Assembly (NCBI RefSeq): GCF_019200975.1
Contig: NZ_JAHTMR010000003.1
Coordinates: 465,639 to 529,638 of the forward strand
Source: Pseudomonas sp. PD9R
Lineage (GTDB): Bacteria; Pseudomonadota; Gammaproteobacteria; Pseudomonadales; Pseudomonadaceae
Length of the DNA: 64,000 bases
Reading direction: 5' to 3'
Part shown: positions 27,750-48,724 of the stretch, piece by piece
How positions within the stretch are numbered: the stretch's first letter is position 1
Layout: every line of letters begins with the position of its first letter
The notes under the pieces: generated by a model
Told to the model about the DNA's origin: nothing
The model's database searches: none
Seen by the model: the letters and a program-made list of their open reading frames with translations, nothing else
Position numbers and translations under genes: made by a program

Positions 27750-28220
27750 ATGTCCGCAGAATCCCAACTGAATCTGACTCGTTACGTCCCGGCACTCCTG
27801 AATTTTTTGTCCAATAAACTCTCTGCCGGGGCCTCACAGTGCTATCGCAAGCATTTCGGCATAGGGGTCGTCGAGTGGCGAATGCTCTCGATGCTCGCCG
27901 TGGAAAATGACATCACCGCCAATCGAATTTGTCAGACGATCGGTCTCGACAAGAGCGCGGTCAGCCGTTCACTGCAGTCCCTGGAAGTGGCAGGGCACAT
28001 TTGCAGCCAGGTTGATTCCAAGGATGCGCGGCGTTACACCGTCAGACTGACTGACAGCGGAAAAGCGTTGCATGATCGAGTGTTGAAGGTTGCACTGGAA
28101 CGAGAGCGGCGGCTGCTGAGCGGGCTCTCTGCCAAGGAAGTGGACACCCTTATCGAGTTGTTGGGGCGAATGCATGCCCAAGTCTCCAACGTGAACGATT
28201 ACGACCCGGTAGACGCTTGA
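27750..28220 (+). CDS. MarR-family regulator of the VanAB-like pair (probable)
   Basis: A 156-residue winged-helix protein: helices ITANRICQTIGLDKSAVSRSLQSLE form the DNA-reading unit and DSKDARRYTVRLTDSGKAL the wing, typical MarR features. The start is uncertain: ATG 27732 or 27750. It is divergent from the vanB-like reductase with a palindromic operator between, so it probably represses that pair and itself until an aromatic ligand binds. True vanillate regulators (VanR) are GntR-type, so the ligand may be another phenolic compound. Confidence 0.82.
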   Translation: MSAESQLNLTRYVPALLNFLSNKLSAGASQCYRKHFGIGVVEWRMLSMLAVENDITANRICQTIGLDKSAVSRSLQSLEVAGHICSQVDSKDARRYTVRLTDSGKALHDRVLKVALERERRLLSGLSAKEVDTLIELLGRMHAQVSNVNDYDPVDA

Positions 28221-28366: not shown

Positions 28367-28411
28367 GATATCGCGTTTGCCGATAGGTCACATCCCGACA
28401 AGCGATTAGTC
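28367..28411 (+). promoter_or_regulatory. Operator A: paired ATC-N9-GAT boxes before the HBM chemoreceptor
   Basis: Box 1 ATCGCGTTTGCCGAT (28370-28384) and box 2 ATCCCGACAAGCGAT (28392-28406) are separated by 7 bases, so their centres are 22 bases apart, two turns of DNA. A TAGTCA follows box 2. The whole region is nearly identical to operators B and C. It lies 143 bases before the chemoreceptor start. Confidence 0.8.
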
Positions 28412-28548
28412 AGCGCCGCTGTGTCACAGGCAACCTGTGCCCGTCGCTCGGTCCATCCCGCCAATTGACGCGCGCCGGTTCAAGCCGCCATTCCCGGCCG
28501 CAGGTGGTGGGTGACATTGCCAATAAAAACTAAAAGAAGGCTCGTTCG

Positions 28549-30546
28549 ATGGCTACTCACTTCATCGCCGCATCGCGGCGTGCGCCTTTCATGACGAACC
28601 ACTTCTTGGGCGATTTGCTCAGCCGGCTCAGTGTTGGCGGCAAGTTGTTGCTCGGCTTCGGTCTGGTGCTGATCTGCACGATGGGCATGGCGTTCACCGC
28701 GTGGTATTCGTTGCAGGTAACGCAGTCGAGCGCCACACAGTTACGCGTGCTGGATCGCCAGAAAGATAACCTCGCCCAAGCCCGAGTTGCAGAGAAGGAT
28801 TTCGGTTTGCAGCCGTCAATGGAGAAGGCCAGGCAAGTTGAGGAATTTCTGCGCCAGCTTCAAATCGGCTCGCCGCTTGAGCACGTGGGCGAAGACTTCG
28901 GGCGTACGCTTGCGGACTCGTCCGACGGTTACCTGAAGGCGTTTCAGGCATACGCCGAGGCGCGTCAACAGGCGTTACAGGCGAGGATGCGCATGCAAGT
29001 GCTGGCGGAAACCACGGGACACCGTTTCAGCGAAGTGTTCCTCGACCAACTGGACGGTATCAATCTGAATCTTGAGCAACACAACCTGCCCGACACGCAG
29101 TCAATGCAGCAGTTGGAGGAGGCGGCGTCGTTACGCGAGCGCTTGGCCAATCTGCGCGGCAGTGAGCTGTATTTTTCCCTGGATCCGCAGACGCGTTACC
29201 GCGACGACTGGGTCAACCGAGTCAATGAACTGGGTACTGCGTTGAGCAGCCTGAGTTCGCAACTCGACGGGGATCGTCGTCGTGCACTGGATGAGGCCAG
29301 CGCAGCGTTGACCGAATATCGTCAGGCATTTTTGGCTTATGCCGTCAGCGGTGAACAGGCCATGGCGCAGCAGGTGAGCATGTCGAACTCGGCAGAGAAA
29401 GTGACGGCGCTTTTGGAAGACGAGCGCGTCAGGGCCGCGCACTCTTATGAATCCCTCCGGCAACGCCTGGACCTGCAACTTGCCGCAATGGTGCTGCTGG
29501 CAGTGGTCCTCAGTATCGTTGCGTGCCTTGTGATCCGACGCTCGATTGTCTTGCCCCTGAAGTTGATGCTGGGCCTGGCACAACGGGTGGCCGCAGGTGA
29601 TCTGAAGGATCGTCCCGCACAGCTCGGTCGGCAGGATGAGTTAGGCCAGCTCAGCCGCGCTATCGACCTGATGTTGCAGGCGCTGCGCAGTCTTGTGGGT
29701 CGGATCGGCAGCGATGTGCAACAGCTTGACGCTGCCGCCGCCACGTTGGGCGCAATGGTGCAGCGCACAGGGCAGGGCGTGCGTGCACAGCGCGAACAAA
29801 CCGCTGAGGCGGTTGAGGCCATGCAGCATATGACCCGAGCCGCTGTACAGGTCAACCAGCAAGTCGCAGGCAGCCAGGTAACCTTGGGCGAAGCCTGCGA
29901 GCTGATCCATCAGGGGGACGATCTGGTACGTCAGGCTAGCCAAAGCTTGCAGCGGCTGTCGCGGGAAATGACCAGCAGTGCGAGTTCCATGCAACTGCTG
30001 AAAACCGAGAGCCAGGCGATTACCGGCGTGCTCGACGTGATCAGCACCATCGCCGAACAGACGAATCTACTGGCCTTGAATGCGGTCATCGAAGCCGCAC
30101 GCGCCGGTGAGCAGGGGCGCGGATTTGCTGTGGTGGCGGACGAAGTGAGGGCGCTCGCCAGTCGAACGCGAGCATCGACTGGCGAGATCGACAGCATGAT
30201 TCGACGTCTGGGCGAGGTGACTGGCGATACCGCCGCCAGTCTTTTCGACAGTCAGCGCCTGACAGATGAAGGCGTTGATCTGACCGTTCGCGCGAGTCGG
30301 GTTCTGGATGCGATTACCGAGGCCATTTCGCGTGTTGAACACACCGGGAAGAGCATTGCCCACGCCGCATCGACTCAACACGACATCGTCTGCCGGGTCG
30401 ATGCAGTCCTGGGTCAGGTTGATGGGGTGGTTGAGCAAAATGCCGAGGAGTGCGCTCGGTTGGAATTGGCTAATGGCAACTTGCAGCGTCTGAGTGTCAG
30501 CCTGGGTGAAGCGGTTGGGGCGTTTCAAAGCGACCCTGTAGTTTGA
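28549..30546 (+). CDS. Methyl-accepting chemotaxis protein with HBM (McpS-like) sensor
   Basis: A 665-residue chemoreceptor. A membrane helix near residues 30-50 is followed by a periplasmic part of about 260 residues, the size and all-helical pattern of the helical bimodular (HBM) domain known from McpS. A second membrane helix lies near 310-330, then a HAMP ([17 protein letters not shown]), and a signalling hairpin with [18 protein letters not shown] and [18 protein letters not shown] receptors bind organic acids and some aromatic compounds. AGAAGG precedes the ATG. It is the first gene of the island and is preceded by operator A, so chemotaxis is probably induced together with the catabolic genes. 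Confidence 0.9.
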
Positions 30547-30596: not shown

Positions 30597-31532
30597 ATGC
30601 GTTATCGACGTCTTGACCTGAATCTGCTGGTAGCCCTGGATGCCTTGTTGAGCGAATGCAGCGTCAGCAGGGCCGCCGAACGTTTGTGCCTGGGCCAGTC
30701 GGCAGCCAGTTCGGCGCTCGGGCGTTTGCGTGAGCATTTCAATGACCCGTTGCTGGTTCAGGTAGGACGACGTCTGGAACCCACGGCGTTGGGGCTGGAG
30801 TTGCTGCCCAAAGTGCGTCAGGCGCTGGCACTGACACGGGAGATTGTCGATGCCCCGGTCAATTTTGAACCTGCCAATTGCATTCGGCACTTCACGTTGG
30901 TGGCCTCCGACTACGTGGCTGGCGTGCTGCTGCCGGCGGTCAGTCTTGAATTGGCCCGAATCGCGCCGGGCGTGCGCTTGAGCCTGCGGGACATGCCTGT
31001 ACCGCGCGATGGTGATGTGGTCAGCGAAGCGCTCGATTATCGTCGCAGTGATTGCGTGATTGTGCCTCAGCGACGGTTGAATCCGGCTTACCCCCATCTA
31101 CCGTTAATGAGTGACCAGCTCTGTTGCATCGTCTGTGCTCAGCAACCGCAATACGCCGATGGTCTGAGCCTTACCAATTATTGCGAGGCGGAGCACGTAG
31201 TCCGCGAGTTTGCCGATGGCCGAAACCTGGCGATGGATGCCGTGCACCTGCATGAACTGGGTGTTCAACGGCGAGTGGCGGTGGCCCTTGAAAGCTTCGT
31301 GCTGATGCCCGAATTTATCGTGGGTACCGCGCGGATCGCCACCGTATTTCGCCGGCAGGCGCAGCGTTTCGCTCAGCATTACCCACTGCGAATTCACCCA
31401 ACACCGCTGGCTTTTCCCGAGGCTGTCCAGGTGATGCAATGGCATCCCTATCAAGACCATGACCCCGCCATGTTGTGGTTTCGCGGCCTCTTGCTGGAAC
31501 AGGCCGCGTTGCTTGATCAGCCGGGCAACTGA
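30597..31532 (+). CDS. NodD-like LysR regulator (first of two in the island)
   Basis: A 311-residue LysR protein of the NodD/NahR subgroup, recognisable from the start MRYRRLDLNLLVALDALL, the helix-turn-helix SVSRAAERLCLGQSAASSAL, LLVQVGRRLEPT, and the late VGTARIATVFRRQAQRFAQ. It follows the chemoreceptor by 50 bases on the same strand and may be co-transcribed with it. Proteins of this class bind ATC-N9-GAT boxes and respond to aromatic or flavonoid-like inducers. Its 3' end overlaps the convergent HbpS/GlcG gene by 16 bases. Confidence 0.88.
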   Translation: MRYRRLDLNLLVALDALLSECSVSRAAERLCLGQSAASSALGRLREHFNDPLLVQVGRRLEPTALGLELLPKVRQALALTREIVDAPVNFEPANCIRHFTLVASDYVAGVLLPAVSLELARIAPGVRLSLRDMPVPRDGDVVSEALDYRRSDCVIVPQRRLNPAYPHLPLMSDQLCCIVCAQQPQYADGLSLTNYCEAEHVVREFADGRNLAMDAVHLHELGVQRRVAVALESFVLMPEFIVGTARIATVFRRQAQRFAQHYPLRIHPTPLAFPEAVQVMQWHPYQDHDPAMLWFRGLLLEQAALLDQPGN

Positions 31533-31974: not shown

Positions 31975-33324
31975 TCATTGAGCCCACTTGCCCAATTGGG
32001 CAACGCGGTCGCGGGTGTAAAGGTCTGTCCATTTCAGCGAGTTGAAGTCAGACACCTGTTTTGGGTTGTAGGGGCTGCGCTCCATGGGCACGGGGCGGCC
32101 GGCCTTGTACACGGCTTTTAGGCACGAGCGGTCTTGCAGAATGCGGATGTCGTGCAACGGTGAACCGTCGAGTAACAGGAAGTCCGCTTGCTTGCCAACT
32201 TCAAGGGAACCGAGGGTCTCGCCACGCGGCATGCAGCGTGCGCCGACTGCCGTGGCGGCATACAACGCTTCTGCCGGTGTGAAGCCCAGGCGGGTGACCA
32301 ACAGTTCCAACTCACGAGCGTGCCACTCGCCGTAAGGCGTCACCGCAAAACCGCTGTCGCTGCCACAAGCGAAAGGCACGCCGGCGGCCTTGGCACGTTT
32401 GAGCACGGCCGAACCCACTTCCAGGGTGCGGGCGCAGTAGCCGGCGTAACCGGTACTGATGGCCGGATCGTGGGGCTGGCAGAAGTCCACGGTGTTTTGA
32501 GGGAAGGTCATGGTCGGCGCGAGAATGCTACCGGCTTCGAGCAAGGCTTCGATGCACGCGTCGTCCATATAAAAGGCATGAAACACCAGATCAACACCGG
32601 CGCGCGCGGCGTACATCACCGCTTCGCGGCCATAGGCGTGAGTCGCCACTTTGCAACCCAGTCGATGCGCTTCTTCGACCATTTCGTAAGTTTCTTCAGC
32701 GGTGAACGCGGCAATGATTTCGCCATTCGGGCGGCGGTGGGTGCCATCCATGGCGATCTTGATCAGGTCGACACCATCCTTGGCCTGTTTGCGGATTTCG
32801 GCCAATGCTTCGCTGCGGCTGGTGACCAGCCGCGCGGTGAAATATTCCGGCGCACCCACGCGGCTCGGGAACCAGTCGTTGAGGCTCTGCCGATTGGTAA
32901 TGACCCGGCTGCTGGCGGCAATGCGCGGGCCCTCGAACAAACCGGCGGCGATTGCATTGCGCACGGCGATGCTGAGCTGGCCGCTATCGCCCGGGCAGAC
33001 CATGCTGGTCACACCCGCGGCCAGCACATGTTGGGCGAAGAACATGCCACGCAGCGCGCGGAACTCGTCACTGGTCCAGATATCGATGTCTTCTTCGCTC
33101 TGCGCGTTACCAAAGGCCAGATGGGTATGCACATCCACCAGGCCCGGCATGACAAAGTTATCACCGGCGTCCAGAACGGTGTCTCCCGGTTGCGATTGCG
33201 GCGCCAAGGCGGTTGGGCCGACATACGACAGCAGGCCGTTTTCCACGACCAGGGTTTGCTGTTGACGGGTTTCCAGGCCAGTACCGTCGAACAAGGTCTG
33301 GCATTTCAGGTGCAGGGCGTTCAT
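31975..33324 (-). CDS. Metal-dependent amidohydrolase (imidazolonepropionase/prolidase-like)
   Basis: A 449-residue TIM-barrel amidohydrolase. Metal ligands are visible in order: GLVDVHTHLAFGNA (HxH), DLIKIAMDG with the probable carboxylated Lys, CKVATHAYGREA, DLVFHAFYMDD, and ACGSDSGFAVTP with the late Asp. No signal peptide. Members cleave amide, ester or lactone bonds of small molecules, including some mycotoxins. The position in the island suggests that it opens an amide or lactone of the substrate or an intermediate. It is divergent from the NTF2-like gene, with operator D between. Confidence 0.85.
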   Translation of the reverse strand: MNALHLKCQTLFDGTGLETRQQQTLVVENGLLSYVGPTALAPQSQPGDTVLDAGDNFVMPGLVDVHTHLAFGNAQSEEDIDIWTSDEFRALRGMFFAQHVLAAGVTSMVCPGDSGQLSIAVRNAIAAGLFEGPRIAASSRVITNRQSLNDWFPSRVGAPEYFTARLVTSRSEALAEIRKQAKDGVDLIKIAMDGTHRRPNGEIIAAFTAEETYEMVEEAHRLGCKVATHAYGREAVMYAARAGVDLVFHAFYMDDACIEALLEAGSILAPTMTFPQNTVDFCQPHDPAISTGYAGYCARTLEVGSAVLKRAKAAGVPFACGSDSGFAVTPYGEWHARELELLVTRLGFTPAEALYAATAVGARCMPRGETLGSLEVGKQADFLLLDGSPLHDIRILQDRSCLKAVYKAGRPVPMERSPYNPKQVSDFNSLKWTDLYTRDRVAQLGKWAQ

Positions 33325-33417: not shown

Positions 33418-33485
33418 GCGTCAATAGCGGCTGCACATCAGCAGCGGCGGGGCTTTGCGGCGAAGAGTGACCTCAAGGGGCGAGT

Positions 33486-33522
33486 ATCGCGAGTCACGAT
33501 GGCTGGCATCGCGATCGGCGAT
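33486..33522 (+). promoter_or_regulatory. Operator D: paired ATC-N9-GAT boxes before the NTF2-like gene
   Basis: Box 1 ATCGCGAGTCACGAT (33486-33500) and box 2 ATCGCGATCGGCGAT (33508-33522) again have 7 bases between. The boxes keep the architecture although the remaining bases differ from operators A-C, which argues for selection on the contact bases. It lies between the divergent amidohydrolase and NTF2-like genes, 62 bases before the latter. Confidence 0.72.
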
Positions 33523-33583
33523 TTTTTATCGGCCGGGTCGGGCGTCTATGGTGCGCGCTCGTCATCCACAGAGATCCCTTCAT

Positions 33584-33970
33584 ATGACCATCGCCACTGT
33601 AAAAGCCCAACTCCTGGCACTTGAGCAAGAACGCCGCCGGGCCCTGGTTGAGGAAGATTATTCGCGCGTCGCCGAACTGTTCGCCGATGACCTTGTGTAC
33701 GTGCACACCACCGGATTGGTGCAAGGCAAGGCGGACTACCTGGAATACGCCAAAAGCGCAGTGCAGTATCTGGACATTGAACGTGGCGAACTGCTGATTC
33801 GCTTCTACGGCGAGCGCCTGGCGATCATGACCGGTACGCAGTGCAACACCTTGCGTAAACGCGGTGGTGACCAATCGATTCGCGGTGAAGGCTTTGCCAC
33901 GCAGGTCTGGGCACTCGGTGCCGAAGGTTGGCAGATCAGCTCGTTCCATGGCACACGAGCGCCCAACTGA
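33584..33970 (+). CDS. NTF2/SnoaL-like protein
   Basis: A 128-residue protein with the cone-shaped NTF2-like fold: LEQERRRALVEEDYSRVAELFADDLVYVHTTGLVQGKADYLEY is the standard N-terminal part, and GEGFATQVWALGAEGWQISSFHGT the end. Such small proteins act as hydratases, isomerases, dehydratases or cyclases on ring compounds, or as scaffold domains. The gene is monocistronic, between operator D and a strong terminator. The start at ATG 33584 has only a weak ribosome site. Confidence 0.82.
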   Translation: MTIATVKAQLLALEQERRRALVEEDYSRVAELFADDLVYVHTTGLVQGKADYLEYAKSAVQYLDIERGELLIRFYGERLAIMTGTQCNTLRKRGGDQSIRGEGFATQVWALGAEGWQISSFHGTRAPN

Positions 33971-34045: not shown

Positions 34046-35203
34046 TTAAGCGGTGTGGCCACCCAGCGTTTCGGCAATCCAGTCAGCGATGTAGTGACCG
34101 GCGTTGATGCTGTTATCGAAGCTGGAATGCTGCACGCCACCTTCGCGCTCGGTGAAGATCTTCAGTTCGCGCTTAGGGCTGTTGACCAGTTGCTCGTAAG
34201 TGCGCTGAGCCCACTTCAGCGGGATTTGCGAGTCCTTTTCGCCATGGGTCACCAGGAACGGCACCTTGATGCGATCGAGTACGCCATCCAGATGCACGTT
34301 TTCGGCGATGGTCATGAACTCATCCATGTCTTTTGCCCCCCACACCCAGCACACGTGCGCCCAATAGTGCGGTACGGGGAAGCTGCCTTCTTTTTCCAGT
34401 CGACGTTTTTGCACATCGCGCCAGTCATGGTTTGCGCCCCACACCACGCCGCAAGCAAACCGTGGTTCAAACGCCACCGCACGCGGGCAGTAATAACCGC
34501 CGAGAGAGACGCCTTCCAGGCCAATACGCTTGGCATCCACGTCGCTTCGGGTTTCCAGCCAGTCGACTACGCGGCTGGCCCAATGCTCGCTGTCGAAACG
34601 GGCAATCAGGTTATGCAGGCGCAGGGCTTCACCCGTGCCGGGCTGGTCGATGATCAACGATGAGATGCCGCGTTTCGCCAGCCAGGCCGGCAGGCCGACG
34701 CGGTATTTCATTTCTTTGGTTGAATCCAGTCCGTTGACCTGCACCAGGATCGGTGCCGGACCGGTTACGCCTTCGGCGCGCACCAGCAGGCCGGAAATAT
34801 GTTTGCCCTCGTAGGGGATTTCAACGCGCTCACAATTCTCGCGTGACAACTCGATGCCGCGTTTGAAGGTCTGCAAAAAACGCTGGTACAGCTCATTCCG
34901 GCCCGGCGCGCCATGGGCCTGCAAACGTTCGCAAGTGAGGTAATAAGTGGCGGCGCGGTTGTACTTTTCGCCTGCGGACAGCAGCCGGGCATTACCTTCA
35001 TCTTCCTCAGCCAGGCCACACAGTTTGTCTGCCATCTTCGCCCAGGTTTCGCGGAACGCTTTGGTTCCCGCTGCGTCGGGCTGCTGGGCGGCTTCCTGCA
35101 AGGGCGCGCACATCTCTTCGATTTCGCCCATGCGGGCGCCCATCTCGATGGCCAGGTCGACAGAAAGATTCCACACATAATTGGTTGGAAAGTAACGGAA
35201 CAT
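34046..35203 (-). CDS. Alpha/beta hydrolase, DHPON-hydrolase-like (C-C bond type)
   Basis: A 385-residue enzyme with a helical cap domain (residues about 1-130) before the alpha/beta hydrolase core. The core shows ILVQVNGLDSTKEMKY, IDQPGTGEALRLHNL, the nucleophile elbow LEGVSLGGYYCPRA, the acid in VTHGEKDSQIP and the His in GVQHSSFDN. This arrangement resembles FrsA and 2,6-dihydroxypseudooxynicotine hydrolase, which splits a C-C bond next to a ketone. A similar retro-Claisen cleavage is plausible for the unknown substrate. It follows the NodD-like LysR gene by 59 bases and is probably co-transcribed with it. Confidence 0.85.
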   Translation of the reverse strand: MFRYFPTNYVWNLSVDLAIEMGARMGEIEEMCAPLQEAAQQPDAAGTKAFRETWAKMADKLCGLAEEDEGNARLLSAGEKYNRAATYYLTCERLQAHGAPGRNELYQRFLQTFKRGIELSRENCERVEIPYEGKHISGLLVRAEGVTGPAPILVQVNGLDSTKEMKYRVGLPAWLAKRGISSLIIDQPGTGEALRLHNLIARFDSEHWASRVVDWLETRSDVDAKRIGLEGVSLGGYYCPRAVAFEPRFACGVVWGANHDWRDVQKRRLEKEGSFPVPHYWAHVCWVWGAKDMDEFMTIAENVHLDGVLDRIKVPFLVTHGEKDSQIPLKWAQRTYEQLVNSPKRELKIFTEREGGVQHSSFDNSINAGHYIADWIAETLGGHTA

Positions 35204-35262: not shown

Positions 35263-36225
35263 CTAATTGGCCAATCGTGCCTCAGGATGGGAGGTATCGC
35301 GACCGGCGATAGAAGGGTTTTCCAGGTGCTGGATAAATTCGCTGATGCGTTCGCGCAGCCAGCGGTGCATCGGGTCGCCCTCGACGGTGCGATGCCAGAG
35401 CATGACCTCGCGCATGACAGGGATCTTCACCGGTGGATTGAGGATGCGCAGCGGCAAGTGCTGGGCGTATAGCCGTGCCAGACGCCGGTGCATGGTGGCG
35501 ATGCGATGGGTGCCTACAACCAGCTGCGGCAGTGTGTTGAAGTCGTTGGTAATGACTTCGATACGGCGGTTGAATCCGTACTGGTTCATGAACCACTCTT
35601 CGATGCTCAAGTGCCGGCTGCGACCAAAACCGACAGAAACATGCCCCATTTCCATGTACTGCTCAAGGGTCAGGCTGTCACCGACCTGGGTATTGCCGTC
35701 CCACACCACGCAGACGTGTTCCTCTTCGAACAGCAGCTTGTGGGGATGGCCGTCGATGATGTAGCGCTCAGGCACGATCATCAGGTCAACCTCACCGCGA
35801 ATCAGCAACTCACCGGAATTGTCGCCGGGGCCGAGCATCTCGAAGGTGATGTTGGGCGCTTCCTGGTGGATTTTTTGAATGACCTGGGCAAACAGCACGC
35901 TGATCAGGTAATCCGAGGTCACCAGGCGAAAGTGACGTTTGCTGGTGGTGGGGTCGAACACGGGCTTGGCAGTGATCGATGACTTGATCGTCAACAGCAC
36001 CTCACGGATGGGCGTGGCGAGCTCCCTGGCATAGGGCGTGAGTTGCATTTTTCGGCCGACCTGCACCAGCAGTTCGTCTTCGAAATAGGTACGCAGGCGT
36101 CCCAATACACCGCTGGTGGCAGACTGCGTCATGTGCAGGCGTTCGGCGGCGCGGGTGATGTTCTGTTCTTCGAGCAGCACATCGAGTGCGACCAACAGGT
36201 TCAAATCCAGGTGGTTAAAACGCAT
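35263..36225 (-). CDS. NodD-like LysR regulator (second), divergent from the dioxygenase gene
   Basis: A 320-residue LysR protein with very NodD-like features: MRFNHLDLNLLVALDVLLEE, the helix-turn-helix NITRAAERLHMTQSATSGVL, VFDPTTSKRHFRLVTSDYL, MEMGHVSVGFGRSRHLSIEEW and VVGTHRIATMHRRLARLYA. In rhizobia NodD activates nod genes from conserved boxes built of ATC-N9-GAT units when a flavonoid is present. Operator B, with that same pattern, lies between this gene and the divergent VOC gene, so it is the best candidate activator for operators A-D. It is followed by the hydrolase gene. Start ATG 36225 is chosen by homology of the N-terminus. Confidence 0.9.
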   Translation of the reverse strand: MRFNHLDLNLLVALDVLLEEQNITRAAERLHMTQSATSGVLGRLRTYFEDELLVQVGRKMQLTPYARELATPIREVLLTIKSSITAKPVFDPTTSKRHFRLVTSDYLISVLFAQVIQKIHQEAPNITFEMLGPGDNSGELLIRGEVDLMIVPERYIIDGHPHKLLFEEEHVCVVWDGNTQVGDSLTLEQYMEMGHVSVGFGRSRHLSIEEWFMNQYGFNRRIEVITNDFNTLPQLVVGTHRIATMHRRLARLYAQHLPLRILNPPVKIPVMREVMLWHRTVEGDPMHRWLRERISEFIQHLENPSIAGRDTSHPEARLAN

Positions 36226-36341: not shown

Positions 36342-36387
36342 GGTATCGCGTTTTCTGATAGGTCGCATCCCGACATGCGATTAGTCA
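36342..36387 (+). promoter_or_regulatory. Operator B: paired ATC-N9-GAT boxes, LysR/VOC intergenic region
   Basis: Box 1 ATCGCGTTTTCTGAT (36345-36359) and box 2 ATCCCGACATGCGAT (36367-36381), separated by 7 bases and followed by TAGTCA. It lies 120 bases upstream of the LysR start and 143 bases upstream of the VOC start, the standard divergent position for LysR control. Confidence 0.85.
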
Positions 36388-36523: not shown

Positions 36524-37465
36524 ATGAACATCCTTGGCCTTGATGCCCTGATCTTTGGCGTCGATGACATCCAAGCCTGTACCGATTGCCTGCGTGACTA
36601 CGGCCTGGCCCCTGTCGCTGTCGACAGTAACGGCGGGCGTTTCGAAGCACTGGACGGCACTGCCGTGATCATTCGGCGGTCGGACGACCCTGACTTGCCT
36701 GCCGCCATTGGCCCGGCACCCTCGATTCGCGAAACCGTTTATGGCGTCGCCAGCGCTGCCGACCTCGATGCCATCGCAGATGAACTGGCGCGAGATCGTC
36801 AGGTCACCCGTGACGGCAACGGCGTGTTGCACAGTGTCGACGACATGGGTTTTGCGATTGCTTTCCAGGTCACAGTCCGCAAGGCGTATAGCGCTCCGGA
36901 AGACCTGACCAACGCCGCCGGCCATGCGCCACAGCGTCCGCTTAATCAGCCCGGCATCACGCTCGAAATGAATGCCACGCCGCGCACCTTGTCGCACGTG
37001 GTGTATTTCGTCCCCGATGCGGCCAAGGCCGAAGCGTTCTATGCCGAACGCCTGGGCTTTCGAACCACAGACACCTTTATCGGCGCAGGGCCGTTCATGC
37101 GCCCGGCAGGTTCCGATGATCACCACTGCCTGTTCATGATCCAGACCCCACCACACATGAAGGGCTGCGAACACTTCACCTTCCACATGGGCAGCGGTAC
37201 CGAAGTGTTGTTGGCCGGTACGCGCTTCGAGCAAAAAGGCTGGACCAGTTTCTGGGGCCCTGGCCGCCACCTCTTTGGCTCCAACTGGTTCTGGTACTTC
37301 AACAGTCCGCTGGGCTGCCACATCGAATACGACGCGGACATGGACAAGCACGATGACGCCTGGGAGGCGCGCCGTGCGCCACTGTCGGCGGATAACTCGC
37401 AGCTGTTCCTGTTCAACTCGAAAGAAAAATGGGCACCGGGCGGCCCGCCACCCAAGCACGGCTGA
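36524..37465 (+). CDS. Two-domain VOC-fold ring-cleavage dioxygenase (putative)
   Basis: A 313-residue protein with two vicinal-oxygen-chelate modules, as in type I extradiol dioxygenases. The N-terminal module (LDALIFGVDDIQACTDCL) lacks metal ligands. The C-terminal module has LSHVVYFVPD with the first His, GCEHFTFHMGSG with the second, and LGCHIEYDADMD with the Glu, a full 2-His-1-Glu iron site. Such enzymes open catechol-type rings next to two hydroxyl groups. A reading frame extends 45 codons further upstream, but ATG 36524 fits the domain. It forms an operon with the Rieske ferredoxin gene. Confidence 0.82.
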   Translation: MNILGLDALIFGVDDIQACTDCLRDYGLAPVAVDSNGGRFEALDGTAVIIRRSDDPDLPAAIGPAPSIRETVYGVASAADLDAIADELARDRQVTRDGNGVLHSVDDMGFAIAFQVTVRKAYSAPEDLTNAAGHAPQRPLNQPGITLEMNATPRTLSHVVYFVPDAAKAEAFYAERLGFRTTDTFIGAGPFMRPAGSDDHHCLFMIQTPPHMKGCEHFTFHMGSGTEVLLAGTRFEQKGWTSFWGPGRHLFGSNWFWYFNSPLGCHIEYDADMDKHDDAWEARRAPLSADNSQLFLFNSKEKWAPGGPPPKHG

Positions 37466-37480: not shown

Positions 37481-37891
37481 ATGAGCCACAGCGATTTTTT
37501 TCTGTGCCGGATGGACGAGTTGGCAGAAGGGCAGGCGCGCGGTTTTGACCCGTTGCAGCGCGGCAAGGACAGTGTTTTTGCCTTGGTGCACGAGGGGCAA
37601 GTGCGGATTTATCGCAACAGCTGCCCGCATCTGGACGTGCGCCTGGAGTACCGAAAGGACCGGTTTTTGTCGGCCGACGGCCAGCTGATCGTCTGTTACG
37701 CCCACGGCGCGCAGTTTCTCCCGAGCACCGGCGAATGTGTCTACGGCCCATGTCTGGGCCAGGGCCTGGACGCGTTGCCATGGCGTCTGGAGGAGGGCTG
37801 GCTGGTGCTGGAAATGCCGAGATCTACCGCGTTATCGGGGCCGGTCGAGGTATCGCGTTTGGCGATACATCGCATCCCTACTCGCGATTAG
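37481..37891 (+). CDS. Rieske [2Fe-2S] ferredoxin-like protein
   Basis: A 136-residue protein with one Rieske domain: CPHLDVRLEY and IVCYAHGAQF supply C-x-H and C-x2-H. It lacks an oxygenase iron domain, so it is an electron carrier for a ring-modifying oxygenase. It follows the VOC gene by 15 bases. Its last codons contain operator C, so the 3' end serves both as coding sequence and as a regulator binding site. Confidence 0.85.
   Translation: MSHSDFFLCRMDELAEGQARGFDPLQRGKDSVFALVHEGQVRIYRNSCPHLDVRLEYRKDRFLSADGQLIVCYAHGAQFLPSTGECVYGPCLGQGLDALPWRLEEGWLVLEMPRSTALSGPVEVSRLAIHRIPTRD
37849..37891 (+). promoter_or_regulatory. Operator C: paired ATC-N9-GAT boxes inside the end of the Rieske gene
   Basis: Box 1 ATCGCGTTTGGCGAT (37852-37866) and box 2 ATCCCTACTCGCGAT (37874-37888), spaced by 7 bases, followed by TAGTCA at the stop codon. 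Box 1 extended by one base on each side is a perfect inverted repeat TATCGC-N5-GCGATA. It lies 91 bases before the FAD monooxygenase start, as an internal promoter for the long downstream operon. Confidence 0.82.
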
Positions 37892-37978
37892 TCAAATCCC
37901 TGCTTTGACGGGAAGCTGGACCTAACGACGTAGCGCCCGGCGCTGCATCGAATCACAAGAATAAAAAGTGAGTAAGTC

Positions 37979-39103
37979 ATGAGTGCAGTGAACAAAGTTC
38001 TGATCGTGGGTGGTGGGATTGGTGGCTTGTGTGCGGCCATCGCACTGCGGCGCAAGGGCGTTGAGGTCGACCTGATCGAGCTCAAGTCAGAGTGGACGGT
38101 TTACGGTGTCGGCATCATCCAGCAGAGCAATGTGGTTCGCGAGATGGCCAAGCTGGGCGTGCTCGATGGTTATCTCGATGCCGCGTATGCCTTTGAAGAC
38201 GTCGCCATCTATGGCCCGGCCGGTCAGCAACTGGCGCGCATCCCGGGTCAGCGTCTGGCAGGGCCTGCCTATCCGGCGAACGTTGGTATCTCCCGTTTGG
38301 CGCTGCATAAAGTGCTCAGCGAAACCGCCCTCGAACTGGGCGCCAACGTACGCCTGGGACTCAGTGTCGAATCCCTGAAGGACCTTGGCGACAGCGTTGA
38401 AGTGGTGTTCACCGATGGCAGCAGCGGGGGGTACGACCTGGTGGTGGGTGCCGACGGTTTGTTCTCCAAAGTTCGCGACCTGCTGCTTGGCGATACGTAC
38501 CAACCGAGGTTCACGGGCCAGGCGGTGTGGCGCTACAACTTCCCACGCGACCCGCACATCGATCACCTCGCCAACTACCAAAGCGCCGACGGTAATGCCG
38601 GGCTGGTGCCGTTGGCCGGTGACCTGATGTACCTGTTCCTGACTTCCCACGAACCCACCAATCCGTGGATGGACCCGGCCACTCTGGCCGAGCAAATGCG
38701 TCAGCGCCTGCAAGGGTTTACCGGCCTGATCGGCGAACTGCGTGAACAAATCACCGACAGTAGCCAGGTTGTTTACAAGCCGATGGAAGTGGTTTTCGTC
38801 GACGAGCCTTGGTATCGCGGCCGCGTTCTGTTGATCGGTGATGCGGCCCATGCCACCACGCCGCACCTCGGCCAGGGCGCCGGCATGGCGATCGAAGATG
38901 CCATCGTGCTTAGTGAGGAGCTGACCGGTGAAGGCGATATTGAGCAACAGCTCAAGCGCTTCATGGAGCGCCGTTTCGAGCGCTGCAAATACATCAGCGA
39001 AAGCTCGGTGTTGGCCGGCGACAAAGAGATGCAGCACGACCGCGACTTCGACCGCATCGGGCTGGTCAAGCAGATGCTCGCACGCACGGCCGAGCCTATC
39101 TGA
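37979..39103 (+). CDS. FAD-dependent aromatic-ring hydroxylase
   Basis: A 374-residue group A flavin monooxygenase. LIVGGGIGGLCAAIALRRKG (residues 8-27) is the FAD-binding motif, VGADGLFSKVR the DG motif and LIGDAAHATTPHLGQGAGM the GD motif. Family members hydroxylate an aromatic ring with NAD(P)H and oxygen. It likely makes the diol opened by the VOC dioxygenase. It is the first gene after operator C and heads a same-strand run of ten genes with short gaps or overlaps, reaching at least the cyclase at 50.5 kb. Confidence 0.9.
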   Translation: MSAVNKVLIVGGGIGGLCAAIALRRKGVEVDLIELKSEWTVYGVGIIQQSNVVREMAKLGVLDGYLDAAYAFEDVAIYGPAGQQLARIPGQRLAGPAYPANVGISRLALHKVLSETALELGANVRLGLSVESLKDLGDSVEVVFTDGSSGGYDLVVGADGLFSKVRDLLLGDTYQPRFTGQAVWRYNFPRDPHIDHLANYQSADGNAGLVPLAGDLMYLFLTSHEPTNPWMDPATLAEQMRQRLQGFTGLIGELREQITDSSQVVYKPMEVVFVDEPWYRGRVLLIGDAAHATTPHLGQGAGMAIEDAIVLSEELTGEGDIEQQLKRFMERRFERCKYISESSVLAGDKEMQHDRDFDRIGLVKQMLARTAEPI

Positions 39104-39152: not shown

Positions 39153-40850
39153 ATGGTCAATTCCACGACTGCGACGCTTGCGCGTCGCCCGGTCAGCACG
39201 TCTGCACCCTTTGGTTTCAGTTTGGCGGCGGCGTTGGTGCTGTGCAGCCAGGCTGCCCATGCCTTTCAAGTGGATACCGGCAATCCGGATTTCAGCCTGC
39301 GTTGGGATAATACGGTCAAGTACAGCGCCGCATGGCGCACCCAGAACCCCAGCAGCAAACTGACTGAAGGGCAGGTGGCACTCAATCAGGACGACGGTGA
39401 TCGGGCCTTCAAAAAGGGCTTGATCTCCAACCGCACGGACATCCTTTCCGAACTGGATATGTCCTTCAAAAACGTCGGCGCGCGCCTCAGTGGCGCCGCC
39501 TGGTACGACACCGAATATCAGCAAGACAACGACAACACTGATCCGACACGCGCCAACGCCCGTTCCGTGGCCTATGACGAATTTACCGATGACACCCGCC
39601 ACTTGCACGGCGGTGACGGCGAATTGCTCGATGCGTTCGTGTACTGGAACGGCGAGTTGGGCGATCACGCCACGTCAGTGCGCGCCGGCCGCCACGGGTT
39701 GGTCTGGGGCGAGAGCCTGTTCTTCGGTGCCAACGGCATTGCCGGGGGCATGGGGCCGGTCGATGTGGTCAAGGCGCAGTCCGTCCCCAACACCCAGTTC
39801 AAGGAAATCACCCGTCCGGTCAATCAACTGTCGGGGACTTTCCAACTGACCGACGCCGTGTCGCTCGGCGCCTTTTACCAACTCGAATGGGAAGAGACGC
39901 GCCTGCCCGGTGCCGGCAGTTATTTCTCCACCAGCGACACCATCGGCGAAGGCAACGAACGCTTGATCGTGGGAGCACCTTTCCCCGCATTCCTCGGTGG
40001 CAATCCCAACAGCCCGGCGGCGTTTTTCCATGGCAATGACAAGGAAGCGAAAAGCTCAGGGCAGGGCGGTCTGCAGTTGAAATACAACGCGGAGACTGTC
40101 GAATACGGCCTTTACGCGATCCAGTACAACGACAAGACCCCCAAGCTGTATCTCAAACCTTCTACGGGTGTGCCGAACTTCAGTACCGGGCAAATCGGTG
40201 AGTACTACTGGGTGTATCCGGAAGACATCCGCGCCCTGGGCGCCAGTTTTTCCACCACCGTGGATGAATACAGTTTCGCCGGTGAAGCCTCGATGCGCTG
40301 GAACATGCCGCTGGTTTCCAACGGTCAAACCGTGTTGCCCGGTGTTGACGCTGATAACGACAACAACCCGCTTTATGCCGTCGGCCGTACCGCCCACATC
40401 AACCTCAACGTACTGGCTTCGTTCGGGCCGAACTTCATTGCCAATGAGTCGGGACTCGTCGGTGAGGTTGCCTGGAACCGTCTGCTCAGCGTCACTAAAA
40501 ACCGTGCAGCGCTTGACCCCAATGCCACCGATGACGGTCTCGGTTTCAAGGTGGTTTACACCCCGACCTACCGCCAGTTTTTCTCGGGCGTCGATATCGG
40601 CATCCCGGTCGGCCTCAGCTACTTCCCCCTGGGCAAATCCGCGGTGGTCAGCTCGTTCGGTCCGGACAACGGTGGCGATATGAACATCGGCATTACGGCC
40701 ACCTACCTGGATCGCGTGACCGCGGGCCTGACTTACACGCACTACTACGGCCCCGAGGACACCAACCTCAATGGCGCCAACGAGTTCAATTTCAAGCAAT
40801 CGCTGAAAGACCGGGACTACTTGTCTTTCTCCGTCAAGACCACGTTTTAA
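39153..40850 (+). CDS. DUF1302 outer-membrane-type protein
   Basis: A 565-residue exported protein: signal peptide ending near SQAAHA (residue about 37) and then a beta-rich chain (FSLRWDNTVKYSAAWR, SLGAFYQLEWEETR) that ends with the aromatic pattern YLSFSVKTTF, as in outer-membrane barrels. The DUF1302 family regularly occurs with DUF1329, a YCF48-like protein and an RND transporter in loci for poorly soluble substrates, and is thought to help entry across the outer membrane. AGAGGTTAAC precedes the ATG. Function is by family association. Confidence 0.85.
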   Translation: MVNSTTATLARRPVSTSAPFGFSLAAALVLCSQAAHAFQVDTGNPDFSLRWDNTVKYSAAWRTQNPSSKLTEGQVALNQDDGDRAFKKGLISNRTDILSELDMSFKNVGARLSGAAWYDTEYQQDNDNTDPTRANARSVAYDEFTDDTRHLHGGDGELLDAFVYWNGELGDHATSVRAGRHGLVWGESLFFGANGIAGGMGPVDVVKAQSVPNTQFKEITRPVNQLSGTFQLTDAVSLGAFYQLEWEETRLPGAGSYFSTSDTIGEGNERLIVGAPFPAFLGGNPNSPAAFFHGNDKEAKSSGQGGLQLKYNAETVEYGLYAIQYNDKTPKLYLKPSTGVPNFSTGQIGEYYWVYPEDIRALGASFSTTVDEYSFAGEASMRWNMPLVSNGQTVLPGVDADNDNNPLYAVGRTAHINLNVLASFGPNFIANESGLVGEVAWNRLLSVTKNRAALDPNATDDGLGFKVVYTPTYRQFFSGVDIGIPVGLSYFPLGKSAVVSSFGPDNGGDMNIGITATYLDRVTAGLTYTHYYGPEDTNLNGANEFNFKQSLKDRDYLSFSVKTTF

Positions 40851-40862
40851 GAGGACTTGCGC

Positions 40863-42251
40863 ATGACCCACAACAAAAAGACCGGAGCTTTCAAGCTCAA
40901 AGCCCTTTGCTTCGCACTGCTGGGCAGCCTGGCCGTTTGCAGTCAGATGACAGTGGCAGCGACGGCTGAAGACGCGGCGAAACTCTCGAAAAGCCTGACG
41001 CCTTTCGGTGCTGAACGTGCCGGCAACGCTGACGGTTCCATTCCCGCCTGGGACGGTGGTTACACCAAGGTCGATCCCTCCTATAAGGAAGGTGGAAAAC
41101 GCTCCGATCCGTTTGCCGCGGACAAACCGCTGTTCAGCATCACCTCGAAAAACCTTGCGCAATACGCCGGCAAGCTCAGCGATGGCACCAAGGAAATGTT
41201 CAAGCGTTTCCCGGACACCTACCGCATCGATGTTTACCCGACCCGGCGCTCGGCCGCCGCACCACAGTGGGTGTATGACAACACCCTGAAAAACGCTACC
41301 CGCGCCAAACTGGTCGACAGCAGCGCCGGTCCCGTACCGCAAGGCGCGTTTGGCGGCATCCCGTTCCCGGTGCCAAGCAATGGCGCCGAAGCCATGTGGA
41401 ACCACGTGCTGAACTGGCGAGGCACCTCGGTGGCGATGCATTTTCGTCACTACCTGATGACCGCCGATGGCAAACAGGTGATGACCACCGACGGCAAGGC
41501 CATCCAGGAAATGCCGTATTACTACCAGGATGGGTCGCCGGAAACGTTTGCCGGTGATTACTGGCTGTTCCGTCTGCTCAACGTCGGGCCACCGTTGCGT
41601 GCCGGCGAGCAGATCATGGGCCGCACCAACATCAATGGCGACCTGTCCCAGGCGCACGTTTACCTGACCGGTCAACGCCGGGTGCGCAAGCTGCCAAATG
41701 CCTGCTGCGATACCCCGACACCTGCCACTGCCGGCGTGATGTCGTTCGACGAGTTGAGCGTATTCCAGGGCCGCATGGACCGCTTCGACTGGAAGCTGGT
41801 GGGCAAGCAGGAGATGTACATCCCCTACAACACCAACAAAGTGCAAACCGCCGGCAAACCTGAGGATCTGTTCCTCGCACACCACATGAACCCTGATTAC
41901 GTGCGTTGGGAATTGCACCGGGTCTGGGTCGTGGAGGCTGACTTGGCGCCGGGTAAACGTCACCAGTTGCCGAAGGGCCGCTACTACCTCGATGAAGACA
42001 CCTGGCAAGCGATGCTGGGCGACCGCTGGGACGCCAACGGCCAACTGGCCAAGACCCTGTGGTCGTTGCCGGCAGTCATGCCGGACCTGCCCGCTCAAGC
42101 GCAATTGTCCTCGGGCTTTTATGACCTGACCTCAGGCGCCTGGTTTATCCAGAACGTCTACACCGGCTTGCCGGAGCAGTACGGCTTGGTGGATCGCTAT
42201 AAGGCTTCGGAGTTTTCGCCTGCAGCGATGGCGGGTGCCGGGGTTCGTTGA
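40863..42251 (+). CDS. DUF1329 exported protein
   Basis: A 462-residue protein with a signal peptide (KALCFALLGSLAVCSQMTVA) and the DUF1329 domain with TPFGAERAGNADGSIPAWDGG near residue 35 and the later RVRKLPNACCDTPTPATAGV and RFDWKLVGKQEMYIPYN. The fold is related to LolA/LolB-type carriers that shield hydrophobic molecules in the periplasm. It is 12 bases behind the DUF1302 gene with GAGGACTT before the ATG. It likely carries the hydrophobic substrate in the envelope; unproven. Confidence 0.85.
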   Translation: MTHNKKTGAFKLKALCFALLGSLAVCSQMTVAATAEDAAKLSKSLTPFGAERAGNADGSIPAWDGGYTKVDPSYKEGGKRSDPFAADKPLFSITSKNLAQYAGKLSDGTKEMFKRFPDTYRIDVYPTRRSAAAPQWVYDNTLKNATRAKLVDSSAGPVPQGAFGGIPFPVPSNGAEAMWNHVLNWRGTSVAMHFRHYLMTADGKQVMTTDGKAIQEMPYYYQDGSPETFAGDYWLFRLLNVGPPLRAGEQIMGRTNINGDLSQAHVYLTGQRRVRKLPNACCDTPTPATAGVMSFDELSVFQGRMDRFDWKLVGKQEMYIPYNTNKVQTAGKPEDLFLAHHMNPDYVRWELHRVWVVEADLAPGKRHQLPKGRYYLDEDTWQAMLGDRWDANGQLAKTLWSLPAVMPDLPAQAQLSSGFYDLTSGAWFIQNVYTGLPEQYGLVDRYKASEFSPAAMAGAGVR

Positions 42252-42313
42252 GTCAGGCCGGATCGTGGTTTGTGGAGCGCGATCCGGTTTTTAACGGTTT
42301 TTCGAGGTCGGTA

Positions 42314-43420
42314 ATGAACAGAATCTGTCAGGTGGTTGGTCGGCTGATGTGGCTTATGGCGTTGCCTCTGGCGATGCCATTGAGCCTGGCGCAGGCCGCG
42401 GCGGTGGGCGACGTACTGAACACCCCGGCGATGCAGGTACCGCAAGCAACCTCCGCGGTGCTGCTGGATCTGGCCCGGGCGGGTTTACGCCTGGTAGCGG
42501 TGGGGGAGCGGGGCATCGTGCTGCTTTCCGATGACAACGGCGCAAGCTGGCGTCAGGTCGCCGTGCCGGTTTCGGTCAGCCTGACGGCGGTGCAGTTCGT
42601 CAACGCCAGCACGGGGTGGGCCGTGGGGCATGGCGGTGTCGTCCTGGCCTCCCGTGACGGGGGTGAACACTGGGTCGTGCAACTGGATGGCCTTCGAGCG
42701 GCGCAACTTGAGCTGGCCGCCGCCAGGGAGCAATTGCCTGCCGCCAACGACCAGGACGCAGCCGCCGTACGTGTGCAAACAGCTGAACGTTATGTCGGGG
42801 AGGGCGCTGACAAGCCGTTTCTTGCCCTTCAGTTCGTGGATGACCAACACGGCGTGATTGTCGGGGCTTACGGCTTGGCCTTTCACACCGATGATGGCGG
42901 TTCCACCTGGCATTCGATCATGGGGCAAATCGACAACCCGATGGGCGCGCACTTGTCTGCCATCGCTCAACAGGGTGAACACTGGTTTTTGGCCGGCGAG
43001 CAGGGTTACCTCGCTCGCTCGGACGATGCCGGCAAGTCATTCACTCAGCTGGAAAGCCCCTATGCGGGCAGCTTTTTCACCCTGCAATTGCGCGATGACG
43101 GCACCTTGCTGGTGGCCGGCCTGAAGGGCAATGCGTTTTCCTCCCGCGATCTGGGCGAGAGCTTCCAGCCAGCGCCCGTGTCGATGCCGGTGTCGTTCAG
43201 CGATGCGATCCGCACCGATGACGGCCAGTTGCTGCTGGTCAATCAAACCGGTGCCTTGTTTCGCACCAACAGCCAACCCGATGCATTGCTCCAACCCTAT
43301 GGCAAACCGCTCGGCAAGCCCGTTTCCAGTGTTATTCAGGCCGCCGATGGCAGCCTGGTACTCGCGGGTTTCACTGGGTTGACGCGCCTTTCGCCGTCAA
43401 TCGTTACCGCTTCGGAGTGA
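42314..43420 (+). CDS. YCF48/HCF136-like exported beta-propeller protein
   Basis: A 368-residue protein with a signal peptide (hydrophobic run ending SLAQAAA) and repeated propeller blades with SSDDNGASWRQV-like, SRDGGEHWVVQL, TDDGGSTWHSI and SDDAGKSFTQL segments. These Asp-box/BNR repeats are the YCF48/HCF136 pattern. In this gene neighbourhood such proteins accompany RND transporters and probably help assemble envelope proteins. ATG 42314 has GAGGT before it. The next gene starts four bases after the stop. Confidence 0.85.
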   Translation: MNRICQVVGRLMWLMALPLAMPLSLAQAAAVGDVLNTPAMQVPQATSAVLLDLARAGLRLVAVGERGIVLLSDDNGASWRQVAVPVSVSLTAVQFVNASTGWAVGHGGVVLASRDGGEHWVVQLDGLRAAQLELAAAREQLPAANDQDAAAVRVQTAERYVGEGADKPFLALQFVDDQHGVIVGAYGLAFHTDDGGSTWHSIMGQIDNPMGAHLSAIAQQGEHWFLAGEQGYLARSDDAGKSFTQLESPYAGSFFTLQLRDDGTLLVAGLKGNAFSSRDLGESFQPAPVSMPVSFSDAIRTDDGQLLLVNQTGALFRTNSQPDALLQPYGKPLGKPVSSVIQAADGSLVLAGFTGLTRLSPSIVTASE

Positions 43421-43424
43421 GGTT

Positions 43425-45899
43425 ATGAAGTCTTTCGACAACGCCACGCAAAGCCTGGCGAATTTCGATCCACGCTCCGGTTCGGTGGTGGAACGCACGC
43501 TGTTCAATCACCGCCTGTGGGTGCTGCTGGTGTGTGTGCTGACAACCCTGGTATTGGGTTATCAAGCCACCCGCATCGAGCTCAATGCCAGTTTCGAAAA
43601 GATGATCCCCACACAACAGCCCTACATTGCCAACTACCTTGAGCACCAGAAACAGCTCACCGGTCTAGGCAATGCCCTGCGCATTGTGGTGGCCAACCGG
43701 CAAGGCAGCATCTACGACGCCGAGTATTTGAAAACCCTGCAGGCCATGAGCGACCAACTCTACCTGCTGCCGGGTGTCGACCGGGCTTACATGAAGTCGC
43801 TGTGGACACCCGCCACCCGTTGGGTCGCAGTGACCGAAGACGGCCTTGATGGCGGTCCGGTGATACCCGATGACTACAGCGGCACCACCGCCAACCTCGA
43901 TGCACTGCGGCGCAATGTGCAGCGCTCAAATGAACTCGGACAGCTGGTGGCGTTCGATCAGACTTCCAGCATCATTTACGTGCCGTTGTTGGCAACCACT
44001 TCTGACGGCAAGGCACTTGATTACGCGGTCCTGTCCGAGCAGTTGGAGACGCTGCGCAGCACCCATCAAAGCGCAAAAATCGACATTCACATCACCGGTT
44101 TCGCGAAAAAAGTCGGCGACCTGATTGCCGGTCTGAAACAGATTCTGCTGTTCTTTGCCGTCGCGATCCTGATCACCACCGCCGTGCTGTTTTGGTACAC
44201 CCGGTGCCTGCGCAGTACCGTGCTGGTGGTGTTGTGCTCGCTGGTCGCGGTGGTCTGGCAACTCGGTTTGCTGCCCTTGCTGGACTACCAACTGGACCCG
44301 TATTCCGTGCTGGTGCCGTTTCTGGTGTTTGCCATTGGCATGAGCCACGGCGCGCAGAAGATGAACGGCATCATGCAAGACATCGGTCGTGGCATGCACC
44401 GGGTGGTGGCTGCACGCTTCACTTTTCGTCGTTTGTTCCTCGCCGGGCTGACGGCGCTGCTGTGTGATGCCGTGGGTTTTGCGGTGCTGATGCTGATCAA
44501 GATCCAGGTCATCCAGGACCTCGCGGTGATCGCCAGCATTGGCGTCGCGGTGTTGATCTTCACCAACCTGATCCTGCTGCCGGTGTTGCTCTCGTATGTC
44601 GGCGTTTCTCCCCGTGCGGCACAACTGAGCCTCAAGAGCGAACAAGCCGAGCAATCCGGTCAGGCGCGACATGGGTTCTGGCGCTTTCTTGACCTATTCA
44701 CCCATCGTCGTTGGGCCAGCCTGTGCATCGCCATCAGCCTTGCGTTGGCGGTTGTCGGTTTTCTAGTGGGCCTGCAACTGAAAATCGGTGACCTCGACGT
44801 CGGTGCGCCGGAGCTGCGTGCGGACTCGCGCTACAACCAGGACGATGCCTTTCTGACCCGTCACTACGGTGCCAGTAGTGACCTGTTTGCGGTGATGGTG
44901 AAAACACCGGCCAGCAGTTGTGCGCGCTACGACATCCTCGCCAAGGTCGATGCCCTGGACTGGCAACTGCGCGCTTTGCCGGGTGTGGACTCGACCAACT
45001 CACTGGCGTTGCTGAACCGTCGCATGCTGGTCGGGCTCAGTGAAGGCAACCCGAAGTGGTATGAGCTACAGAACAACCAGGCGATGCTCAACATGATCAC
45101 CGCCAGTGCGCCGCGTGGGTTGTACAACGAAGACTGCAGCCTGTTGACCCTGTACGCCTACCTCACCGACCACAAGGCCGAGACGCTGACGCGCTTGGTC
45201 GACCACGTGGAAAAATTTGCCGCCGAGAACAACACCGACGAGGTGCAGTTCCTTCTGGCCGCCGGTAACGCCGGTATCGAAGCAGCAACCAACATTGTGG
45301 TCAAACAAGCCAACCGCGAGATGCTCGTCTGGGTCTACGGCGCGGTGATTGTGCTGTGCCTGATCACATTCCGCTCCTGGCGCGCGACGCTGTGCGCGGT
45401 CATTCCGCTGATGCTGACGTCCATCCTCTGTGAAGCGTTGATGGTCTGGCTGAACATGGGGGTGAAAGTCGCCACGCTGCCGGTCATCGCCTTGGGTGTC
45501 GGTATCGGTGTCGACTATGCGTTGTACGTGATGAGCATTCTGCTGGGGCATTTGCGCCAGGGGGCGAGCCTGTCCGAAGCGTATTACCGCGCGCTGGTGT
45601 CCACCGGCAAGGTGGTGATGCTGACCGGTATTACCCTGGCCATCGGCGTGGCGACCTGGACGTTCTCACCCATCAAATTCCAGGCCGACATGGGTGTCCT
45701 GCTGGCCTTCATGTTCATCTGGAACATGGTCGGTGCCTTGGTGTTGCTGCCGGCATTGGCGTACTTCCTGTTACCCGCACGCAGCGCTGCGACCGGTGCG
45801 GTTGTAGCGGTGAATGGGGTCAAGGTGGCGGGTTCTGATCCGGCGGTTGTTGCGAACGTTCACCCACTGCGCATTAAGGATCACTGCCATGGTCGCTAA
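43425..45899 (+). CDS. RND/MMPL-type transporter
   Basis: An 824-residue membrane protein with two halves, each made of one helix, a large periplasmic loop and a block of about five helices. This is the HAE3/MMPL layout of the RND superfamily. The loops at about 60-235 and 470-620 are soluble. The intramembrane patterns FAIGMSHGAQKMNG and ALGVGIGVDYALYVM hold conserved charged residues used for proton coupling. It probably moves a hydrophobic compound between membranes together with the DUF1302, DUF1329 and YCF48-like proteins. Its stop overlaps the next gene's start by 11 bases. Confidence 0.9.
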   Translation: MKSFDNATQSLANFDPRSGSVVERTLFNHRLWVLLVCVLTTLVLGYQATRIELNASFEKMIPTQQPYIANYLEHQKQLTGLGNALRIVVANRQGSIYDAEYLKTLQAMSDQLYLLPGVDRAYMKSLWTPATRWVAVTEDGLDGGPVIPDDYSGTTANLDALRRNVQRSNELGQLVAFDQTSSIIYVPLLATTSDGKALDYAVLSEQLETLRSTHQSAKIDIHITGFAKKVGDLIAGLKQILLFFAVAILITTAVLFWYTRCLRSTVLVVLCSLVAVVWQLGLLPLLDYQLDPYSVLVPFLVFAIGMSHGAQKMNGIMQDIGRGMHRVVAARFTFRRLFLAGLTALLCDAVGFAVLMLIKIQVIQDLAVIASIGVAVLIFTNLILLPVLLSYVGVSPRAAQLSLKSEQAEQSGQARHGFWRFLDLFTHRRWASLCIAISLALAVVGFLVGLQLKIGDLDVGAPELRADSRYNQDDAFLTRHYGASSDLFAVMVKTPASSCARYDILAKVDALDWQLRALPGVDSTNSLALLNRRMLVGLSEGNPKWYELQNNQAMLNMITASAPRGLYNEDCSLLTLYAYLTDHKAETLTRLVDHVEKFAAENNTDEVQFLLAAGNAGIEAATNIVVKQANREMLVWVYGAVIVLCLITFRSWRATLCAVIPLMLTSILCEALMVWLNMGVKVATLPVIALGVGIGVDYALYVMSILLGHLRQGASLSEAYYRALVSTGKVVMLTGITLAIGVATWTFSPIKFQADMGVLLAFMFIWNMVGALVLLPALAYFLLPARSAATGAVVAVNGVKVAGSDPAVVANVHPLRIKDHCHGR

Positions 45900-47139: not shown

Positions 47140-47152
47140 ACGAGGATTTTCC

Positions 47153-48714: not shown

Positions 48715-48724
48715 GGAGTGGCAC

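Follow-up and report, generated by a model that had tools for sequence, protein, structure and literature searches.

Chemoreceptors tied to aromatic catabolic pathways are known from Pseudomonas putida, where NahY, a receptor for naphthalene, is reportedly under the control of the LysR regulator NahR, and where PcaY, which is said to respond to aromatic acids, has a four-helix-bundle ligand domain. The locus described here differs from both in the pathway concerned, in a nod-box-like operator and in the HBM fold predicted for its receptor. Receptors linked to catabolism are in themselves familiar; the nod-box-like operator, the flavonoid-type cluster and this family of receptors look new. In domain content, which is the basis of the comparison in place of direct sequence comparison, the catabolic genes resemble the fde genes of Herbaspirillum (naringenin) and the ifc genes of Variovorax (isoflavone), having in common with them an FAD monooxygenase, a glyoxalase-type dioxygenase, an α/β-hydrolase and a cupin (PMC10799723; PMC11069340). 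The fde cluster also includes a LysR regulator, as here, whereas the portions of these two papers available to us mention no receptor for either cluster. The ATC-N9-GAT palindrome of the rhizobial nod box (PMC5596368) recurs in the operators of this locus, a likeness that concerns the palindromes and not the full 47-bp consensus; the nod box governs Nod factor genes, whereas the operators here precede catabolic genes and a receptor gene. Aeromonas sp. H1 is reported to show chemotaxis to flavonoids (PMC9561528), as is Pseudomonas nitroreducens, whose response requires CheA (PMC12442626); in rhizobia such chemotaxis is a matter of dispute (PMC7644916; PMC8129513). Our search of this literature, from which subscription papers were mostly absent, found no receptor inside a flavonoid degradation cluster and no flavonoid receptor mentioned by name.

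The window analysed is a stretch of 64,000 nucleotides from Pseudomonas sp. PD9R (contig NZ_JAHTMR010000003.1), whose relevant features are collected in Table 1. We think it probable that the receptor gene is part of a small LysR regulon, in which five operators govern a catabolic cluster of the flavonoid (fde/ifc-like) type, with activation by LysR2 and sensing of the substrate or a product. More tentative, though a serious possibility, is the wider proposal of a dedicated HBM-fold receptor family for flavonoids or for aromatic acids that flavonoids release, controlled by a NodD-like regulator through a nod-box-like operator. The locus suggests one concrete way in which bacteria might direct their swimming towards aromatic compounds of plants, probably flavonoids, and it offers a specific receptor, regulator and operator open to deletion and assay; close relatives from which only the receptor is missing could serve as natural controls. 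The layout is also that of environmental strains such as Pseudomonas sp. Leaf48 and GM21.

Table 1. Features of the receptor locus and the adjoining catabolic cluster (positions in the window)
Feature	Position	Strand	Remarks
Operator A	28369..28412	+	before receptor; two ATC-N9-GAT palindromes, 22-bp pitch
Putative promoter	28407..28436	+	-35 TAGTCA 28407-28412; -10 CAACCT 28431-28436; spacer 18
Chemoreceptor	28549..30546	+	665 aa; HBM-fold ligand domain (predicted), HAMP and MCPsignal domains
LysR1	30597..31532	+	50 bp behind receptor; probably co-transcribed with it
Amidohydrolase	31975..33324	-	faces operator E
Operator E	33485..33528	+	before DUF4440 gene, facing amidohydrolase
DUF4440 protein	33584..33970	+	behind operator E
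α/β-hydrolase (FrsA-like)	34046..35203	-	behind operator D
LysR2, NodD/NahR-like	35263..36225	-	likelier regulator of A-E
Operator D	35268..35311	-	inside LysR2 3′ end, before α/β-hydrolase
Operator B	36344..36387	+	between LysR2 and VOC dioxygenase
VOC-family ring-cleavage dioxygenase (FdeC/IfcB-like)	36524..37465	+	named by analogy with PMC11069340
Rieske ferredoxin	37481..37891	+	after dioxygenase
Operator C	37851..37894	+	over Rieske gene end, before FAD monooxygenase
FAD monooxygenase	37979..39103	+	behind operator C
DUF1302, DUF1329, Ycf48-like, RND, MFS, cupin, FAH, SDR and cyclase genes	39153..50501	+	after monooxygenase; probable continuation of the operator C unit

The sequence-only reading had described operator A as almost identical to operators B and C in front of ring-modifying genes, and both parts of this hold: over 52 nt A is 88% identical to B and 77% to C, with B leading to the VOC dioxygenase and C to the FAD monooxygenase. 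Operators D and E are two further, more diverged copies, and all five are 44-bp elements of the same two-palindrome architecture. With up to three mismatches allowed, a degenerate pattern for A, B and C finds only those three in the 6.88-Mb genome (reversed control, 0), and the bare two-palindrome pattern occurs at exactly five places, each read on both strands, which are A–E (control, 0) and all of which fall within a single 10-kb stretch. A sequence model of 28 training sites, from which A was left out while B–E were among its rows, recovers A with an E-value of 2.5e-11; the five operators top its genome list, followed by operator E read backwards (0.0096) and then by matches above 0.1. In 100 mononucleotide shuffles of the window, the number of position weight matrix (PWM) matches of at least 8 bits was 0. 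Chance repetition as the origin of the operators was rejected on the shuffles, the reversed control and the genome-wide pattern counts. Duplicated DNA was likewise rejected, as A, B and C resemble one another only in the operator and a few bases, and the leaders behind them differ by eye. Operators C and D lie over the 3′ ends of the Rieske gene and of LysR2, respectively, and their bases therefore also code for the ends of proteins.

The operator follows the catabolic genes closely across the genus. It was found in 37 of 249 genomes (taken to be the first 249 of those used for the dioxygenase search), each of which carries a dioxygenase of at least 61% identity: all 33 genomes with a dioxygenase of at least 79% have it, as do four of the ten with one of 51–64% and none of the 206 without one of at least 50%. 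Among 80 named loci found by their dioxygenase, one or more operators are present in 74, of which 73 are titled Pseudomonas and one Pantoea; the six without are all from other genera. The sites in these loci precede the dioxygenase (73), the hydrolase (70), the monooxygenase (64), LysR1 (28) and the receptor (10), to which a further receptor site in L121 should be added, assigned to LysR1 by the script though the receptor lies between. Another 25 sites have no queried gene behind them; those inspected resemble operator E, whose DUF4440 gene had not been used as a query. A receptor of the window's ligand-domain family is present in 11 of the 80 loci, and in all 11 the operator stands before it. 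Receptor and catabolic genes have one operator type in common, as expected of a NahY-type arrangement, and the operator is unique to the cluster and conserved before receptor homologues in several arrangements; the earlier suggestion that receptor and catabolic genes form one regulon is strongly supported by this, and their co-regulation is well supported. In the other 69 loci no receptor was found within the fetched flanks of up to 10 kb, and it must therefore be dispensable. In P. arsenicoxydans (L068) there was no receptor match genome-wide either. P. nitroreducens 381H has the cluster and no receptor of this ligand-domain family within 10-kb flanks; the flavonoid taxis of another strain of that species may therefore not need the receptor.

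Besides the HAMP and MCP signalling domains, the receptor has a ligand domain for which AlphaFold2, run from 11 sequences, predicts six helices (pLDDT 86). The best Foldseek match of this model is McpS of P. putida (E 3.7e-5; TM-score 0.83 over the target), on which VIA-align superposes 231 residues at 2.7 Å with a Z-score of 20.0 and an identity of only 12%; the runners-up are McpZ (16.8) and TorS (15.2), and unrelated helical bundles reach 15.2. The Pfam HBM family PF16591 scores 24.7 and 27.3 bits, below the cut-off of 29.8. The protein is thus, by its predicted structure, an HBM-fold receptor and not a Pfam HBM member: the label ‘HBM-type’ given to it by the sequence-only reading stands for the fold and not for the Pfam family, and its placing in the McpS class stands for the fold and not for the ligand, since an identity of 11–12% predicts none. 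If the receptor, co-regulated as proposed, did sense small organic acids like McpS, it would merely improve the scavenging of end products. The shared fold is that of a protein solved with malate and succinate, but the low identity speaks against a common ligand, as does a profile search with the ligand domain in which the sole match was ancestral PcpI (E 5.5e-6), PcpI of P. putida 1290 being a receptor that binds salicylate and responds to it (PMC9543091). We regard organic acids as a possible but rather unlikely answer and favour the substrate or an aromatic breakdown product. As a single query, the ligand domain had no match among PDB sequences at E-values up to 1. Searched across the phylum, it has matches in 27 of 398 genomes; those below 1e-40 are limited to the family of the source organism and the others are weaker than 1e-18 and mostly partial. 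In the receptor tree, the family is split from the other HBM receptors of its own genome with a support of 100/100, and receptors at the place between operator and LysR1 fall on several branches, some of the forks being weak.

Comparison with receptor-less relatives bears on what operator A serves. The close relatives L068, L073 and L081 retain the operator together with the 15–45 bp that follow it, and LysR1 comes next, at 55–95 bp from the operator in such loci; in other loci without a receptor the operator before LysR1 is weaker or does not reach the threshold. As the operator belongs to LysR1 in these relatives, the receptor of the window sits between the operator and LysR1, and it is probably the first gene of a receptor–LysR1 unit. 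Operator A might accordingly be the control site of LysR1, with the receptor a passenger that has no role tied to the cluster, and the variable presence of the receptor among close relatives would agree with this. We consider it improbable, because P. brassicacearum-type receptors and those of L156–L159 have an operator of their own with no LysR1 behind, and because 27 of the 36 best ligand-domain homologues in the 398 genomes have a dioxygenase gene of at least 50% identity no more than 35 kb away. The input to this last count was chosen by hand, comprising the dioxygenase rows of at least 50% and three rows of 35% picked for their nearness to receptors, with other rows of 33–40% left out; including the three gives 30 of 36. 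The Fisher test of co-location, on 27, 4, 43 and 324 genomes with the dioxygenase set at 50% or more, ignores relatedness.

That the operator accompanies the receptor itself, as co-regulation with the catabolic genes would have it, can be followed among the homologues: those with ligand domains 32–88% identical carry it, in several gene arrangements, and more distant ones do not. The 600 nt upstream of receptor homologues were scanned with a PWM trained on 145 sites of the dioxygenase, hydrolase and monooxygenase genes, and in 25 of 44 cases the score exceeded the maximum of 20,000 background windows; three more fell below p = 0.001 and 16 did not. One gene appears twice among the 44 rows, as L044 and as L158, the latter with its start mis-called and scoring low. 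The 25 positives comprise seven of the window type, three homologues at 56–57% (G332, G130 and G009), 12 of the P. brassicacearum type, one of them a fragment, and L159, L166 and L167; with nearly half from one type, they amount to about six groups. Among the negatives are homologues next to more distant dioxygenase clusters, as well as two outgroups. L161 does have an operator, at ~1.4 kb upstream of the receptor and not adjoining it. To look for a shared operator in more distant clusters, receptor upstreams were compared by 40-mers with the remainder of each locus. The scores were comparable to those of shuffled controls in L160, L163, L165, L168, L169, L170 and L171, and in L162 the comparison found only an exact repeat beside the receptor upstream; this search is a weak one, which recovered the known case L148 and placed L150 and L156 barely above controls though their operators are real by PWM. 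Receptor matches in Nitrospirillum loci (L141, L143 and L145) and in L138 arose in the full-length search only, none by ligand domain, and were not counted.

Two LysR genes of the cluster could supply the regulator. An orthologue of LysR2 (at least 67% identity) is present in all 12 genomes tested, and LysR1 is missing from four of them (G281, G039, G160 and G341), where the sole LysR1 match is the LysR2 gene at 39–40%. Because these four operator-bearing genomes have no LysR1, LysR2 is the likelier regulator of A–E, and LysR1 may share sites with it. Among solved structures, LysR2 comes closest to 9x6w and 9iib (84 of 205 residues identical in the ligand domain), which we take to be NodD, followed by 1uth and its kin, presumably DntR. 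The last six bases of the operator are TAGTCA in A, B and C, and this ending, with an xAAxxT-like element 17–18 bp on, recurs in the dioxygenase, monooxygenase and hydrolase classes and is less clear in those of LysR1 and the receptor. These elements would fit -35 and -10 boxes with the downstream palindrome abutting the -35, as in LysR activation.

For regulator binding, activation, inducer class, ligand and taxis, we infer the following course. LysR2 would most likely sit on the upstream ATC-N9-GAT palindrome and, with inducer, act at the downstream palindrome next to the -35. The receptor (with LysR1 behind it), the hydrolase, the dioxygenase–Rieske pair and the monooxygenase operon would then be switched on jointly, and the HBM-fold receptor would signal the presence of the substrate, or of an aromatic breakdown product, to the chemotaxis pathway. 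Under the more tentative proposal of a dedicated receptor family, a single plant signal would bring about its own breakdown, and the cell would follow it with a receptor produced only while the pathway is active. The report that naringenin represses many receptors and motility in Herbaspirillum counts against such a scheme (PMC4440368). That the regulator instead represses the receptor in the presence of inducer, with the effect that feeding cells no longer swim, seems very unlikely. LysR proteins can repress, as FdeR at high levels does its own promoter (PMC10799723), and naringenin represses chemotaxis genes in Herbaspirillum (PMC4440368), but operator A matches B, C and D in half-site spacing and in place relative to the likely promoter, and those three serve catabolic genes expected to be induced.

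The nature of the inducer is suggested by the cluster, which has the fde/ifc domain set of an FAD monooxygenase and a glyoxalase-type ring-cleavage dioxygenase with a hydrolase, a cupin and an FAH protein. A cluster in P. thivervalensis SC5 is said to be highly identical to naringenin genes (PMC8515041), and the present cluster occurs in P. thivervalensis DSM 13194, a link made by species and not by alignment. From the fde/ifc likeness and the SC5 report, the substrate class would probably be flavonoid-type plant aromatics. The dioxygenase is 69–70% identical in Acidovorax and Comamonadaceae loci. For the genes from 39153 onwards, membership of the operator C unit is judged probable from their common strand and close spacing.

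Other features adjoin the locus. A second chemoreceptor gene, with a four-helix-bundle ligand domain (4HB_MCP_1), lies at 22760–24478 on the minus strand, with no A–E-type operator nearby. Directly before operator A, at 25396–28220, are VanA/VanB-like genes for a Rieske oxygenase and its reductase with a divergent MarR gene, a module that adjoins the cluster in several relatives too. Receptors of the same ligand-domain family also occur, in L151 and L173, in another catabolic-looking cluster with no dioxygenase of at least 50% nearby; it encodes a pyruvate-dehydrogenase-like complex, an OprB porin and an MFS transporter, with FAH and glyoxalase-type genes in L173 as well, and a diverged operator-like element lies upstream of both receptors. 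In G183, a genome without a dioxygenase match, 350 aa of open reading frame from a receptor of the P. brassicacearum type (L154, 8037–9388) look like a relic, and the operator before them is well kept. At the place corresponding to that of the window receptor, L167 has a receptor with a ligand domain only 32% identical, beside a LysR1 of 65% and a hydrolase of 90% identity; judged by this pair of sequences, the ligand domain evolves, or is exchanged, far more quickly than the neighbouring genes.
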